DNA of 64,000 nucleotides from Acidobacteriota bacterium (lineage in GTDB: Bacteria; Acidobacteriota; Terriglobia; Terriglobales; Acidobacteriaceae), in assembly GCA_021792795.1 (NCBI GenBank), contig JAJYUB010000002.1, positions 1 through 64,000 on the forward strand, read 5' to 3'. A model generated the notes under the pieces. That model was given only the letters and a program-made list of their open reading frames with translations. It searched no databases and was not told where the DNA came from. Made by a program: the position numbers and the translations under genes. This document shows, one piece after another, positions 2,164 to 50,018 of this stretch; position 1 is the first letter of the stretch, and the number at the start of each line of letters is the position of its first letter.

Positions 2164-4557
2164 ATGAAACATGATGTGACCGTCGAATTAACCGGCGGCA
2201 AACGACTTAATTTTGAGACTGGCCGCATGGCCAAGCAGGCTTCAGGCGCCGTACTGGCGACCCTGGGCGACACCGTAGTCCTGGCCACCGCTGTGGCCTC
2301 ACCCGATCCCAGAGAAGGCATCGACTTTTTCCCGCTCACGGTCGATTATCGTGAATACGCCTACGCCGGCGGACGCATCCCCGGTGGTTTTATCAAGCGA
2401 GAAGGCCGGCCCAGCGAGCGCGAAGTTCTTACCTGCCGCCAGATTGACCGCCCCATCCGCCCCTTATTTCCAGAAGGCTTCCGCAACGAGACACAAGTGA
2501 TCGCGCTGGTCTTTTCCGCGGACAAGGAAAATGACCCTGACATTATCGGCATCAACGCCGCAGGTTGCGCGCTGGCGCTCTCCGACATTCCGTTTGGCGG
2601 GCCGGTTGGCGCCGTTCGCGTCGGTCGCGTGGATGGACAGTTCATTATCAATCCTAGCTACGCGGAACTTCGCGCTGGCGATATGAGCATCACCGTCGTC
2701 GGCACGCCGGACGGCATTGTGATGATCGAATCTGGAGCCAAGCAGGTCAGCGAAGATTCCATCGTCGACGCCATCGAATTTGCGCACACAGAAATCAAGA
2801 AGATCTGCGCAGGCATCACGGAGCTGGTTGCGAAAGCCGGCAAGCCGAAGCGCGAAGTGAAGCCGGTCGAATTTGACCAGGCCTACTACGATTCGCTGTA
2901 TGCCAAGGTCGGCGATCGCCTGAAGGATGCGCTCGACACCCACAAACATCCCAAGTTTGAAAGCTACGCGCTGGTCAAGCAGATCAAGGACGAGCTGAAA
3001 GCGGCTCTCCCCGCGGACGATCCGGCGGCGCCTGCGAAACTCTCCAAGTACTATGAATCGCTGCGCGAAAAAATATTCCGCGACCAGGTGATCAAAGATC
3101 GCGTTCGCCCGGACCGCCGCAAGTTCGATGAAATTCGCGAGATTTCCATCGAAGTTGGCGTGCTGCCGCGCGTCCACGGATCGGCGCTGTTTACCCGCGG
3201 GGAAACCCAGGCGCTGGTCACTGCAACTCTGGGCACTTTGGACGACACGCAGCGTCTGGAAAGTTTCGAAGGCGAGCAACGGAAAAGATTCATGCTTCAC
3301 TATAACTTCCCTCCGTTCTCCGTTGGAGAGGTTGGACGTATGACCGGCGTGGGTCGCCGCGAAGTGGGCCATGGGGCCTTGGCGGAACGGGCAGTTTCCG
3401 CTGTACTTCCGACTGCGGAAGAGTCGCCGTATACGGTCCGCATCGTCTCCGACATTCTAGAGTCGAACGGGTCTTCTTCGATGGCCAGCGTCTGCGGTGC
3501 AAGTCTTGCGCTGATGCATGCCGGGATTCCATTGAATGCCTCGGTCGCGGGCATCGCGATGGGGCTGGTCAAGGAAGGCGACAGCTATTCGATTTTGACC
3601 GATATTGCGGGGGCAGAAGACCACTATGGCGACATGGACTTTAAAGTTGCCGGCACGCGCAACGGAATTACCGCGCTCCAGATGGACATCAAGATCGGCG
3701 GAGTCACGGGACAGATCATGCGCGAGGCGCTGGCGCAGGCCCGTGCTGGACGCCTCTTCCTGCTGGACAAAATGGACGCGGTGATCAGCGAGGCGAAGAC
3801 GGAGAAGTCTGAATTTGCTCCGCGCATCCACACATTGCAGATTCCAGTCGACAAGATTCGCGACCTGATCGGACCGGGCGGCAAGACCATTCGCGGCATC
3901 GTGGAGGCGACCGGCGTCAAGATCGATGTCGACGACACCGGTAAGGTCAACGTCGCATCGTCCGATGCCGACGGCCTCCGTCGCGCCATCGAGACCATCA
4001 GCAACCTGACCGCTGTGCCCGAGGTTGGCAAAACCTACCTGGGCAAGGTGGTGCGTTTGGCGGAGTTCGGCGCATTTGTCGAAATTTTCCCAGGCACGGA
4101 TGGTCTGCTGCACATCAGCGAAATTGCCGAGCATCGCGTCCACGAAGTTACGGACGAGTTGAACGACGGCGATCAGGTGCTAGTCAAGGTATTGGGCATC
4201 GAAGGCAACCGCATCAAGCTGTCGCGCAAAGCTGTACTGAAAGAACAACGGATCAAGTTGGGCCTACCGGATCCGAATGCCGGCGGCGGCGGTCATGTTC
4301 CTGACATGGCTGCGGCAGGAGAGCGACAACCCGCTTCCAATGGCAGCACCATTGTGCTGGAAAGTGCGGACGACTTCAACGATGAAGGCGGGGAATCCTC
4401 TGGCGATGCGCCGAACTTCAATCGCGCCGACGGCCCACGTCCACCAAGTTCTTCACCCGGCGGTCGTGGCCCTGGCGGCGGAAACAACAACCGTCGTCGG
4501 CGTCGTCCCGGTGGGGGAGGCGGTCGGCCCGGCGGTGGCGGCGGACGACGTCCTTAA
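2164..4557 (+). CDS. pnp: Polyribonucleotide nucleotidyltransferase (PNPase)
   Basis: 797 aa. PNPase is a 3'-5' phosphorolytic exoribonuclease and degradosome core protein. Order: first RNase PH domain (about 10-145), linker helical domain, second RNase PH domain with the GRREVGHG and phosphate-binding ESNGSSSMA segments (about 310-500), a KH domain containing IRDLIGPGGKTIRGI (about 555-610), and an S1 domain (GAFVEIFPGTDGLLHISEI, about 620-690). The remaining ~95 residues form a disordered Ser/Asp patch followed by a Gly/Arg tail (GGRGPGG, RRRRRPGGGGG), unusually long and probably RNA-binding. The ATG at 2164 follows GAGGA with proper spacing and begins MKHDVTVEL; the longer frame back to 2053 is not needed. 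Confidence 0.98.
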   Translation: MKHDVTVELTGGKRLNFETGRMAKQASGAVLATLGDTVVLATAVASPDPREGIDFFPLTVDYREYAYAGGRIPGGFIKREGRPSEREVLTCRQIDRPIRPLFPEGFRNETQVIALVFSADKENDPDIIGINAAGCALALSDIPFGGPVGAVRVGRVDGQFIINPSYAELRAGDMSITVVGTPDGIVMIESGAKQVSEDSIVDAIEFAHTEIKKICAGITELVAKAGKPKREVKPVEFDQAYYDSLYAKVGDRLKDALDTHKHPKFESYALVKQIKDELKAALPADDPAAPAKLSKYYESLREKIFRDQVIKDRVRPDRRKFDEIREISIEVGVLPRVHGSALFTRGETQALVTATLGTLDDTQRLESFEGEQRKRFMLHYNFPPFSVGEVGRMTGVGRREVGHGALAERAVSAVLPTAEESPYTVRIVSDILESNGSSSMASVCGASLALMHAGIPLNASVAGIAMGLVKEGDSYSILTDIAGAEDHYGDMDFKVAGTRNGITALQMDIKIGGVTGQIMREALAQARAGRLFLLDKMDAVISEAKTEKSEFAPRIHTLQIPVDKIRDLIGPGGKTIRGIVEATGVKIDVDDTGKVNVASSDADGLRRAIETISNLTAVPEVGKTYLGKVVRLAEFGAFVEIFPGTDGLLHISEIAEHRVHEVTDELNDGDQVLVKVLGIEGNRIKLSRKAVLKEQRIKLGLPDPNAGGGGHVPDMAAAGERQPASNGSTIVLESADDFNDEGGESSGDAPNFNRADGPRPPSSSPGGRGPGGGNNNRRRRRPGGGGGRPGGGGGRRP

Positions 4558-44033: not shown

Positions 44034-44070
44034 GGTGCCCCATTCAAGCCTTCTTTTGGCTTGAGTTGGG
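44034..44070 (+). repeat. REP-like element, copy 1
   Basis: GGTGCCCCATTCAAGCC, loop TTCTTTT, GGCTTGAGTtGGG. Same palindrome as eight further copies between 46550 and 49241. It lies between the 77-aa membrane gene and the DoxX-like gene. Confidence 0.85.
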
Positions 44071-46549: not shown

Positions 46550-46586
46550 CCCCACTCAAGCCAAGAGCAGGCTTGAATGGGGCACC
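46550..46586 (-). repeat. REP-like element, copy 2
   Basis: On the minus strand GGTGCCCCATTCAAGCC, variable loop, GGCTTGAGTGGGG. It sits 20 bp before the ATG of the 169-aa membrane gene and could fold in its 5' leader. Confidence 0.85.
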
Positions 46587-47119: not shown

Positions 47120-47156
47120 GGGTGCCCCATTCAAGCCTTCTTTTGGCTTGAGTGGG
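47120..47156 (+). repeat. REP-like element, copy 3
   Basis: GGGTGCCCCATTCAAGCC, loop TTCTTTT, GGCTTGAGTGGG. Read on the minus strand it forms the last codons and stop of the antitoxin-like ORF 47131-47313. Confidence 0.88.
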
Positions 47157-47313
47157 AGAGCATTTTCATGGGCGTACTGAACTGTCCTGCTTGCAGCTTT
47201 GCCAGCAATTCGTCAGCTTCTGCGGCGGTCACGTACAGGCCAGTCGCCTGATATTCCTCCCACGCTGCAAGCGCATCCTGCCGAAATTTCTGACGCTTCC
47301 GGTTGCGATTCAT
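47131..47313 (-). CDS. Antitoxin-like protein (CopG/ParD type) with REP-derived end
   Basis: 60 aa. The segment RQDALAAWEEYQATGLYVTA then EADELLAKLQAGQ is the C-terminal pattern of short CopG/ParD-like antitoxins. The final residues (LSHSSQKKA) and stop come from REP copy 3, so the original C-terminus has been lost. No RelE/ParE toxin lies beside it; a MazF tail lies just upstream. Probably a non-functional orphan. ATG at 47313. Confidence 0.5.
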   Translation of the reverse strand: MNRNRKRQKFRQDALAAWEEYQATGLYVTAAEADELLAKLQAGQFSTPMKMLSHSSQKKA

Positions 47314-47509: not shown

Positions 47510-47548
47510 GGGTGCCCCATTCAAGCCTTCTTTTGGCTTGAGTGGGGG
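47510..47548 (+). repeat. REP-like element, copy 4
   Basis: GGTGCCCCATTCAAGCC, TTCTTTT, GGCTTGAGTGGGG. It marks the break point of the MazF remnant. Confidence 0.88.
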
Positions 47549-47597: not shown

Positions 47598-47637
47598 GGG
47601 TGCCCCATTCAAGCCTTCTGTCGGCTTGAGTGGGGGG
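47598..47637 (+). repeat. REP-like element, copy 5
   Basis: GGGTGCCCCATTCAAGCC, loop TTCTGTC, GGCTTGAGTGGGG. On the minus strand it encodes the C-terminal tail and stop of the RAYT gene. A ~49-bp piece separates it from copy 4. Confidence 0.88.
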
Positions 47638-48208
47638 AAAGTTCTATTGCGGGAGCGAGTCTCCCTGCTGCTCGTTCGCGTTTTCTGGAAATCCACTCGG
47701 ATTCGATCTCCACGCGTCCTTCGAGGCCCGTCGCGTAGTGGAGAAAACTGCTCCACTCCCAGTCTTCAGGACGTTCACACAGTCCACGCTTCACCGGGTT
47801 GCGATGGATGTATCGCAATTTTTCCATGAACTGCGGATGATTTCTGACATTGAAATCGTAGTAGCGTTTTTGCCAGAAGTGCTCGGCTTCGCCGATCAGC
47901 CTCCGAGAGATTCCCTGCTTCAGGGACTTGATGGCATCGGCGAGGGTCCGGGTGGTTTCTCCCCCACTCAAGCCAACAGAAGGCTTGAATGGGGCACCTT
48001 CCGGTTCGCTGATCAGCAAATGAACGTGCTCGGGCATTACGACATAACCGTAAACACGGAGAGAGAATCGAAGCCGGACGCGTTCCAGCGCAGACTCGAA
48101 GACCCATCTTGATTCGATTGGGTTCAGGAGTGGACGGCGCTGATAGCAGGAGAAGGTGAGGAAGTGGGTCTGTCCGGATTCGTGGAATCTTTTTAGCCGG
48201 GAGGGCAT
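47609..48208 (-). CDS. REP-associated tyrosine transposase (RAYT / IS200-like), REP inserted in frame
   Basis: 199 aa. RAYT enzymes are single-stranded-DNA Y1 transposases thought to mobilise REP elements. The HUH metal motif is VMPEHVHLLI (His61, His63), the nucleophile is Tyr116 or 117 in HFWQKRYYDFNVRN, and LRYIHRNPVKRGL follows, all intact. Residues 71-83 (GAPFKPSVGLSGG) are encoded by REP copy 6, placed in the loop between the HUH strand and TLADAIKSLK. The last residues (SPHSSRQKA) come from copy 5. It may still be active; it is the likely mover of the surrounding palindromes. Flanked on both sides by REP copies. Confidence 0.88.
   Translation of the reverse strand: MPSRLKRFHESGQTHFLTFSCYQRRPLLNPIESRWVFESALERVRLRFSLRVYGYVVMPEHVHLLISEPEGAPFKPSVGLSGGETTRTLADAIKSLKQGISRRLIGEAEHFWQKRYYDFNVRNHPQFMEKLRYIHRNPVKRGLCERPEDWEWSSFLHYATGLEGRVEIESEWISRKRERAAGRLAPAIELSPHSSRQKA
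47961..47998 (-). repeat. REP-like element, copy 6, inside the RAYT gene
   Basis: GGTGCCCCATTCAAGCC, TTCTGTT, GGCTTGAGTGGGGG on the minus strand. In frame within the transposase CDS. Confidence 0.88.
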
Positions 48209-48216
48209 GGAGGCAG

Positions 48217-48322
48217 CTTACTCTCTCACCCCACTCAAGCCAAAAAACGGCTTGAATGGGGCACCGTCAGGCTTACTCTCTCCCCCACTCAAGCCAAAAA
48301 ACGGCTTGAATGGGGCACCGTC
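48217..48322. repeat. 54-bp tandem duplication holding REP copies 7 and 8
   Basis: GCTTACTCTCTC plus a REP palindrome plus GTC occurs at 48217-48270 and again at 48271-48322, nearly identical (one base short in the second). The REP cores are 48229-48265 and 48282-48319, both minus strand with loop GTTTTTT-like. They lie between the RAYT start and the ubiD end. Confidence 0.85.
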
Positions 48323-48332
48323 CAATATTTTT

Positions 48333-50018
48333 CTACAATCCTAATTTTTCCCACATAGCGTCGACTTTGGATTTGGTGGTGGGGTCCATGCGGAGCATTT
48401 CTGGCCAGGGACGGGTGAAGCCTTCGGCGGCCCACTTGCACGTGGCGTCGATGCCCATTTTGCTGCCGTAGTTGGGTAGGCGCGAGGCGTGATCGAGCGA
48501 GTCGATGGGGCCGAGGGTGAATTGGATGTCGCGCTCGGGATCGATGTTGTTGGTCACGCGGAGGACGACTTCGCGCATGTCCTGCACATCGCAATCCTCA
48601 TCGACAACGAGGACGCACTTGGTGAACATGGCCTGGCCGAGCGACCAGATGGCGTTCATGACTTTGCGCGCGTGGCCGGGATAGCTTTTGCGGATGGAGA
48701 CGATCATCAGGTTGTGAAAGACCGCTTCGACGGGCAGATTGATGTCGACAATTTCTGGAATGGTGAGCTGCATCAGCGGCAGAAAAATGCGCTCGACGGC
48801 CTTGCCCATCCAGGCATCTTCCATGGGCGGCTTGCCAACGATGGTGGTGGCGTAGATGGGGTCGCGGCGATGGGTGATGCAGGTGATGTGGAAGACGGGA
48901 TAGTCGTCGGGCAGAGTGTAGAAGCCGGTGTGATCGCCGAAGGGACCCTCGGAGCGGAGCTCGTCGAGGCGGACGTAGCCTTCGAGGACGATTTCTGAGG
49001 CGGCGGGGACTTGCAGATCGACGGTCTCGCACTGGACAAGCTCGACGGGTTTTTGGCGGAGGAAGCCGGCGATGATGAATTCTTCGACCTCGGGCGGCGC
49101 GGGGACGATGGCGGAGAAGGTGGTGGCGGGATCGGTGCCGATGGCGACAGCGACTTGCAGGATGTCTCCGGAGGATTTGGTGCGGACGGTGGTGTTTTCT
49201 TCACCCCCACTCAAGCCAGACGACGGCTTGAATGGGGCACCGTCACCTTTGTTTGAAGGCAACATTGCGCCGCCACCGGTTTCGGCCATGCGGGCGACGC
49301 GGGCCGAGGCGGCATCTTGGGAGCCGGCTTCGGCGGATTGGCGCAGGCGTTCACGATAATGCTCCGCGGCAACTTTCTGCCGCTGCCAGTGCATGCCGGT
49401 GGTTTGGCCGTCGTAGACCTGCATGCGATACATGCCGACGTTGCGCTTCCCGGCTGGATTGCCGGCGGCGTCTGTCTTTCGGGGGTCGCGGGTGATGACG
49501 CACGGCAGCGTGATAAAGCGGCCGCCGTCCTGCGGCCAGCATTGCAGAATGGGAAAATCGAGAACGCTGAAATTTTCGCGCAGGATGACTTCTTTGCAGG
49601 GCGCATCCTTGGCGGAGACGATTTTCGGGAAGAATTTGCCCATCTCGGCCAGCATGGGAAGCATGCGAACTTTATCGAGGAAGCCCTCCGGAGAGCGGAG
49701 ATTCATCAGTTCGCGGATGCGATCGGCCACTTCATTTAGCGAGTCGACGCCGAGCGCGAGGCACATGCGGCGCTCGCTGCCGAACTGGTTCATCAAAACC
49801 CTCGCGCCTGGATGGCCTTTCACATTTTCAAACAACAACGCCGGGCCGCCGGGCGCATAGCCTTGGAGCCCGCCCGAGGTTCCGGCTTTGGAGACGCGAT
49901 CGGCAATCTCCGCCATCTCAAGTATTGGATCAATTTCATGCTTGATATATTTGATTTCTTTTGCCTTATCAAGCGCTTTTATCCAGTCTCTTAGGTCGTC
50001 GCAGGCCAAGCTGACCAT
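48333..50018 (-). CDS. ubiD: UbiD-family (prenylated-FMN) decarboxylase with in-frame REP
   Basis: 561 aa; UbiD relatives are commonly 440-500. Order: DLRDWIKALDKAKEIKYIKH, the metal/FMN region ALLFENVKGHPGARVLMNQF, LPMLAEMGKFFPKIVSAKDA, then VAVAIGTDPATTFSAIVPAP, LRSEGPFGDHTGFYTLPDDY, and catalytic-region VDEDCDVQDMREVVLRVTNN. It decarboxylates aryl or unsaturated acids, for example in menaquinone or ubiquinone synthesis, and needs prFMN from UbiX, not seen here. A 55-residue expansion between RQSAE and ILQVAVAIG contains REP copy 9 (residues ~260-272, GAPFKPSSGLSGG). The frame is kept, so the protein is probably still functional. Confidence 0.93.
   Translation of the reverse strand: MVSLACDDLRDWIKALDKAKEIKYIKHEIDPILEMAEIADRVSKAGTSGGLQGYAPGGPALLFENVKGHPGARVLMNQFGSERRMCLALGVDSLNEVADRIRELMNLRSPEGFLDKVRMLPMLAEMGKFFPKIVSAKDAPCKEVILRENFSVLDFPILQCWPQDGGRFITLPCVITRDPRKTDAAGNPAGKRNVGMYRMQVYDGQTTGMHWQRQKVAAEHYRERLRQSAEAGSQDAASARVARMAETGGGAMLPSNKGDGAPFKPSSGLSGGEENTTVRTKSSGDILQVAVAIGTDPATTFSAIVPAPPEVEEFIIAGFLRQKPVELVQCETVDLQVPAASEIVLEGYVRLDELRSEGPFGDHTGFYTLPDDYPVFHITCITHRRDPIYATTIVGKPPMEDAWMGKAVERIFLPLMQLTIPEIVDINLPVEAVFHNLMIVSIRKSYPGHARKVMNAIWSLGQAMFTKCVLVVDEDCDVQDMREVVLRVTNNIDPERDIQFTLGPIDSLDHASRLPNYGSKMGIDATCKWAAEGFTRPWPEMLRMDPTTKSKVDAMWEKLGL
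49204..49241 (-). repeat. REP-like element, copy 9, inside ubiD
   Basis: Minus strand GGTGCCCCATTCAAGCC, loop GTCGTCT, GGCTTGAGTGGGGG. The reading frame and phase are the same as for copy 6 in the RAYT gene. Confidence 0.88.

Follow-up and report, generated by a model that had tools for sequence, protein, structure and literature searches.

In-frame REP elements in a RAYT transposase gene of an Acidobacteriota bacterium and in its relatives

A 37-nt REP element is inserted in frame in a RAYT gene located in the window, the whole 64,000-nt stretch of Acidobacteriota DNA analysed here. In related RAYT genes REPs occupy either this loop or another one, and REPs of the family become rarer with distance from their cognate RAYT. 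The probable explanation is local copying of REPs into the RAYT gene of their own REPtron (a RAYT gene together with its flanking cognate REPs), with selection sparing the insertions that fall in frame in loops. A REP would have copied itself over a short distance into that gene, and new copies would land mostly near the RAYT locus. Such locality would probably come from the RAYT acting on single-stranded DNA by its own gene, or from recombination between neighbouring REPs. Insertions in the RAYT gene would survive only if they kept the frame and fell within either of two exposed loops remote from the catalytic core, and the enzyme with its insert would go on being made and selected. We infer that the RAYT catalyses REP copying and that the insert-bearing enzyme is active. 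Genomes and loci used for comparison are designated below by G and L numbers, respectively.

The RAYT gene and its in-frame REP

The ORF at 47609-48208 is identified as a RAYT from its family profile and its modelled Y1_Tnp/HUH fold. In profile searches it scores 111.2 bits against NF047646 (cut-off 80) and 38.5 bits against PF01797 (cut-off 23). The best fold match of its AlphaFold model is 4er8 (Foldseek E 1e-11), the structure of E. coli TnpA-REP in complex with a REP hairpin. The gene encodes an HUH motif and a single tyrosine in a Y---NP context, and is flanked by REPs that are found elsewhere in the genome (at 47599 and at 48229/48283; ~40 copies). The presumption that Y133 is the catalytic tyrosine draws on the analogous Y---NP motif described in PMC6006769. 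The main features of the gene are as follows.

47609..48208, minus strand: RAYT / TnpA-REP gene, 199 aa, holding the in-frame REP (family profiles; fold match 4er8, E 1e-11)
47962..47998, minus strand: in-gene REP, 37 nt, encoding residues 71-83 (GAPFKPSVGLSGG) (pattern match; absent from orthologues)
48020..48031, minus strand: intact EHVH codons of the HUH motif, residues 60-63 (among 34 homologues, H61 and H63 never vary)
47810..47812, minus strand: codon of the presumed catalytic tyrosine Y133 (YIHRNP), intact (invariant in 34 homologues)

The in-gene REP reads GGTGCCCCATTCAAGCC-TTCTGTT-GGCTTGAGTGGGG. REP elements are typically palindromes of 20-40 nt with a GT[AG]G tetranucleotide at the foot. 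The foot of the in-gene copy is GTGC, with one extra stem pair, and part of the REP family has a GTGG foot (GGTGGCCC). It lies just past EHVH, between the HUH strand and helix alphaC (the beta3-alphaC loop), and Y133 follows downstream with the reading frame unchanged. An earlier note on this DNA had described a REP copy in frame as RAYT residues 71-83, with the HUH and Tyr motifs intact and the frame continuing past it. Both descriptions hold for this full-length gene, with the start of the REP corrected by one base to 47962. In the AlphaFold model, residues 72-84 have pLDDT <50 and the core >90, and the low-confidence loop runs between strand 61-67 and helix 89-104. The in-gene REP is thus predicted to sit in a disordered loop beside an intact core.

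The REP family and its local cluster

The REP pattern has 18 strand-wise matches in the window, equal to nine copies, compared with 0 in 100 shuffles. Across the genome, pattern searches returned ~40 copies of GGTG[CG]CCCATTCAAGCC-N7-GGCTTGAGTGGG and 0 of a reversed control pattern, counts that apply to this loop length, as other loop lengths also occur. Because of these differences from the shuffles and the control, the in-gene REP is not a chance palindrome. Nine of the ~40 genomic REPs are clustered in 5.2 kb around the RAYT gene; besides the in-gene copy they are the following, each found as a pattern match unless another basis is given.

47599..47635, plus strand: flanking REP overlapping the RAYT 3' end and providing its last residues and TGA stop (same arrangement in 23/25 related loci)
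48229..48265, minus strand: REP upstream of the RAYT start
48283..48319, minus strand: second REP upstream of the RAYT start
47511..47547, plus strand: REP of the local cluster
47121..47157, plus strand: REP of the local cluster
46550..46586, minus strand: REP of the local cluster
44034..44070, plus strand: REP of the local cluster
49205..49241, minus strand: REP in frame in a UbiD-family decarboxylase gene (48333-50018, minus strand) (pattern match; orthologue comparison)

The farther from the cognate RAYT, the lower the density of REPs, which drops from 0.98 per kb within the gene to 0.21-0.26 at 0.2-1 kb, 0.16-0.19 at 1-2 kb and 0-0.10 at 2-3 kb, with 0.0099 genome-wide. The 1.5 kb on either side of the other RAYTs in the window genome contained no cognate REP, and 261 kb around RAYTs of other clades contained three copies. 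To see whether RAYT genes are targeted beyond their neighbourhood, the copies inside them (13) were compared with those in the immediate flank (nine), giving P 0.0009; with the interior copies counted as 7 events vs 9, P is ~0.09. When shared ancestry is taken into account, the excess of the interior over the immediate flank is modest.

A REP has likewise entered a loop of the UbiD gene next door. Among relatives, the corresponding UbiD loop has a REP in G009 and G004 (the latter with one damaged arm), whereas G006 has some other repeat there and G002 has no repeat. G009 has the UbiD REP, yet no RAYT relative was found in its genome, which counts against the local-copying account. In Pfam scans of other ORFs with REPs, only UbiD and RAYT were hit inside conserved domains; the remaining in-ORF REPs are mostly close to a predicted start or end, or belong to ORFs in which no known domain is recognised. 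Given the density gradient, the bare surroundings of the other RAYTs and the UbiD hit, the self-insertion is best understood as one of many REP insertions that have rained down near the RAYT, with selection for frame and loop acting as the filter.

The insertion compared with orthologues

The earlier note had proposed comparing RAYT orthologues with and without the insert, and both forms were found. In homologues without it the loop reads SEPQRDTLAD or SEPERGTL, and in the window it reads SEPE-GAPFKPSVGLSGGETT-RTLAD. Orthologues that lack the REP read straight through the loop, and the REP is therefore an insertion. The loop sequence is not common to all orthologues, the REP being absent from G081, G190, G405 and others. 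That the loop is an ancestral segment of the enzyme resembling a REP by chance is scarcely conceivable: the loop is common to four genomes of the genus, but it is absent from most relatives, reversed or located elsewhere in others, and matched by ~40 sequences in the genome. The orthologues without the insert refute this reading.

Three further members of the genus have the window insertion as well: G003, G004 and, as a broken copy, G008. Its carriers form one clade with the window gene (SH-aLRT 86) in a quick tree built without the loop columns, and the window copy is a single old event common to four genomes. Most of the inserts described here come from metagenome-assembled genomes, in which single cases may be misassemblies; the window insertion is seen in four assemblies. 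In G003 and G004 the loop of the REP itself has grown by 18 and 45 nt of further palindromic sequence, without loss of frame (nested; L131 3211-3264 and L190 3211-3291). The sequence added in G003 resembles the CCCTGAGCGAAGTCGAA-type sequence in the loop of a genomic REP at G000:C48.

Across three species (the window, G003 and G004) the arms of the REP agree at 33/33 positions, against 75-79% identity over the remainder of the gene. These frozen arms could be due to gene conversion or to selection for the hairpin. Selection would fit a REP that is kept as a working element, a RAYT-binding hairpin in the gene or mRNA that serves autoregulation or anchors the enzyme at its own locus. The replacement of the inter-arm loop between unchanged arms is in line with this, as is the presence of three or four REPs in or around the likely RAYT transcript in nearly all relatives. 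Many orthologues without an in-gene REP are equally conserved, however, the arm identity could also be obtained by gene conversion with the many other copies, and the UbiD copy of G004 has a damaged arm. We consider retention as a working REP unlikely. It is similarly doubtful that the REPtron regulates itself, with the RAYT recognising the REP in its own coding sequence and the encoded peptide being a tolerated by-product, although the frozen arms are compatible with it.

Recurrence at two loops

Within the same REP clade, in-frame REPs have been found at the same beta3-alphaC loop (site 1) in other relatives, in forward orientation in G077 and G335 and in reverse in G060, G226, G036 and G393. 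The loop that joins alphaC to the HFWQKRYYD strand (alphaC-beta4; site 2) has REPs in reverse orientation in G036, G084 and G173, in forward orientation in G033, G243 and G441, and as an array in L210. G393 has an additional REP near the RAYT C-terminus. Mapped on the tree, insert presence requires seven changes, counting losses, at site 1 and eight at site 2. Because palindromes can flip, some oppositely oriented copies may go back to one and the same event. In other RAYT lineages (L168, L175 and L206) these loops contain unrelated palindromes that match the palindromes flanking each gene. The ends GGTGCCCCA...TGGGG are common to the REP families.

The L210 RAYT (3001-3648) has about four REP units head-to-tail in frame in its second loop. 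In the L206 RAYT (3001-3639), one palindrome of a foreign type (SQVSAQRTGAN) stands in frame at both loops.

The REP insert of G077 (L132, RAYT 1096-1713) is flanked by an exact 23-nt direct duplication (CTGCTGAGCGAACCACAACAGGA), and that of G036 by an imperfect direct duplication of about 23 nt. Direct duplications are not the usual product of HUH single-strand transposition, and another route of insertion may therefore contribute. Template switching, slippage or recombination between neighbouring REPs could insert a REP without RAYT catalysis. The duplications at G077 and G036, the replacement of the REP loop between fixed arms and the incomplete RAYT genes, fragments or truncations, whose end coincides exactly with a REP (L116, L133 at 1835-2080, L152, L155 and L190) would all agree with such a route. 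Against it, REPs accumulate only around the cognate RAYT, as the empty 1.5 kb around the other RAYTs and the three copies in 261 kb elsewhere indicate. An origin by this route has some plausibility and is on balance rather improbable.

The fragments ending at REPs also suggest that in-gene REPs promote breakage or rearrangement. Out-of-frame REP insertions were sought among the frame-broken RAYT copies, a small sample, and none of these has a matching REP at the frameshift site.

Selection on genes with inserts

Gene pairs bearing the insert have dN/dS of 0.08-0.19 and insert-free pairs 0.10-0.14. Together with the intact motifs and the predicted disordered loop, these low values argue for continued RAYT function. 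The earlier note had left two readings of the insertion, tolerance at this loop or a self-limiting event. Tolerance is favoured by the insert-free orthologues, the disordered loop and the low dN/dS, whereas the self-limiting reading is unsupported for the window copy, whose host gene is undamaged and still subject to purifying selection. A self-limiting insertion would cripple the enzyme and halt further spread. The RAYTs of several relatives are indeed truncated at a REP, and in G004, which shares the window insertion, the C-terminus is missing from another REP onwards; from the copies broken at a REP in L116, L133, L152, L155 and L190, a cost of insertion may be real elsewhere. The window gene, by contrast, is full length, its insert falls in the predicted disordered loop, and selection has continued between insert-bearing lineages. 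A self-limiting event is accordingly very unlikely here, and local copying with tolerance at the loop is the reading that we prefer.

Relation to known REP systems

In-frame REPs in RAYT genes are already known, though little studied. Quentin, Siguier, Chandler and Fichant (2018; PMC6006769) reported them for TnpA-REP subclass 2.4, which corresponds to RAYT group 4 of Bertels: there the tnpAREP genes contain REPs in frame, as a rule in the segment from HuH to Y, where length varies and a peripheral position is predicted. The window RAYT family likewise has in-frame REPs within tnpAREP between HuH and Y. Its motifs are EHVH / WQ / YIHRNP, unlike the NH[IFV]H / WQ / YIxNNP of subclass 2.4; since that signature is absent, the window RAYT is not filed as subclass 2.4 and only the same behaviour is noted. 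The window family further differs from subclass 2.4 in its GTGG or GTGC foot, its membership of Terriglobia, its nested REPs and its repeated use of another loop, alphaC-beta4. The additions made here are the lineage (Acidobacteriota; Terriglobia, a soil-bacterium group), the two recurrent loops, the several REP families, the nesting, the locality gradient and the conserved arms.

Direct proof of REP movement by RAYTs is hard to obtain. The family supplies natural before/after pairs, the same gene with and without an insert, in both orientations and at two loops. With these pairs and the fall of density with distance, REP mobility, target choice and locality become testable between close strains. 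The family also shows which loops of an HUH enzyme tolerate 12-50 added residues.

Coding genes are also known to harbour GTAG/CGTC REPs and Rickettsia palindromic elements (PMC3733652). Like those elements, which occur in many proteins, the REPs described here are short palindromes read in frame in protein surface loops, and the UbiD copy is of that kind. The cases of PMC3733652 concern general genes such as uvrA or recB, whereas the window case concerns the cognate transposase. The window RAYT shares with the E. coli TnpA-REP (4er8) the fold, the HUH motif with one tyrosine and the flanking REPs. The two proteins are 24% identical, and the E. coli gene, unlike that of the window, is without an in-gene REP. 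A bulge and a GTAG foot mark the REP of E. coli, whereas the window REP has a near-perfect stem and a GTGC/GTGG foot.
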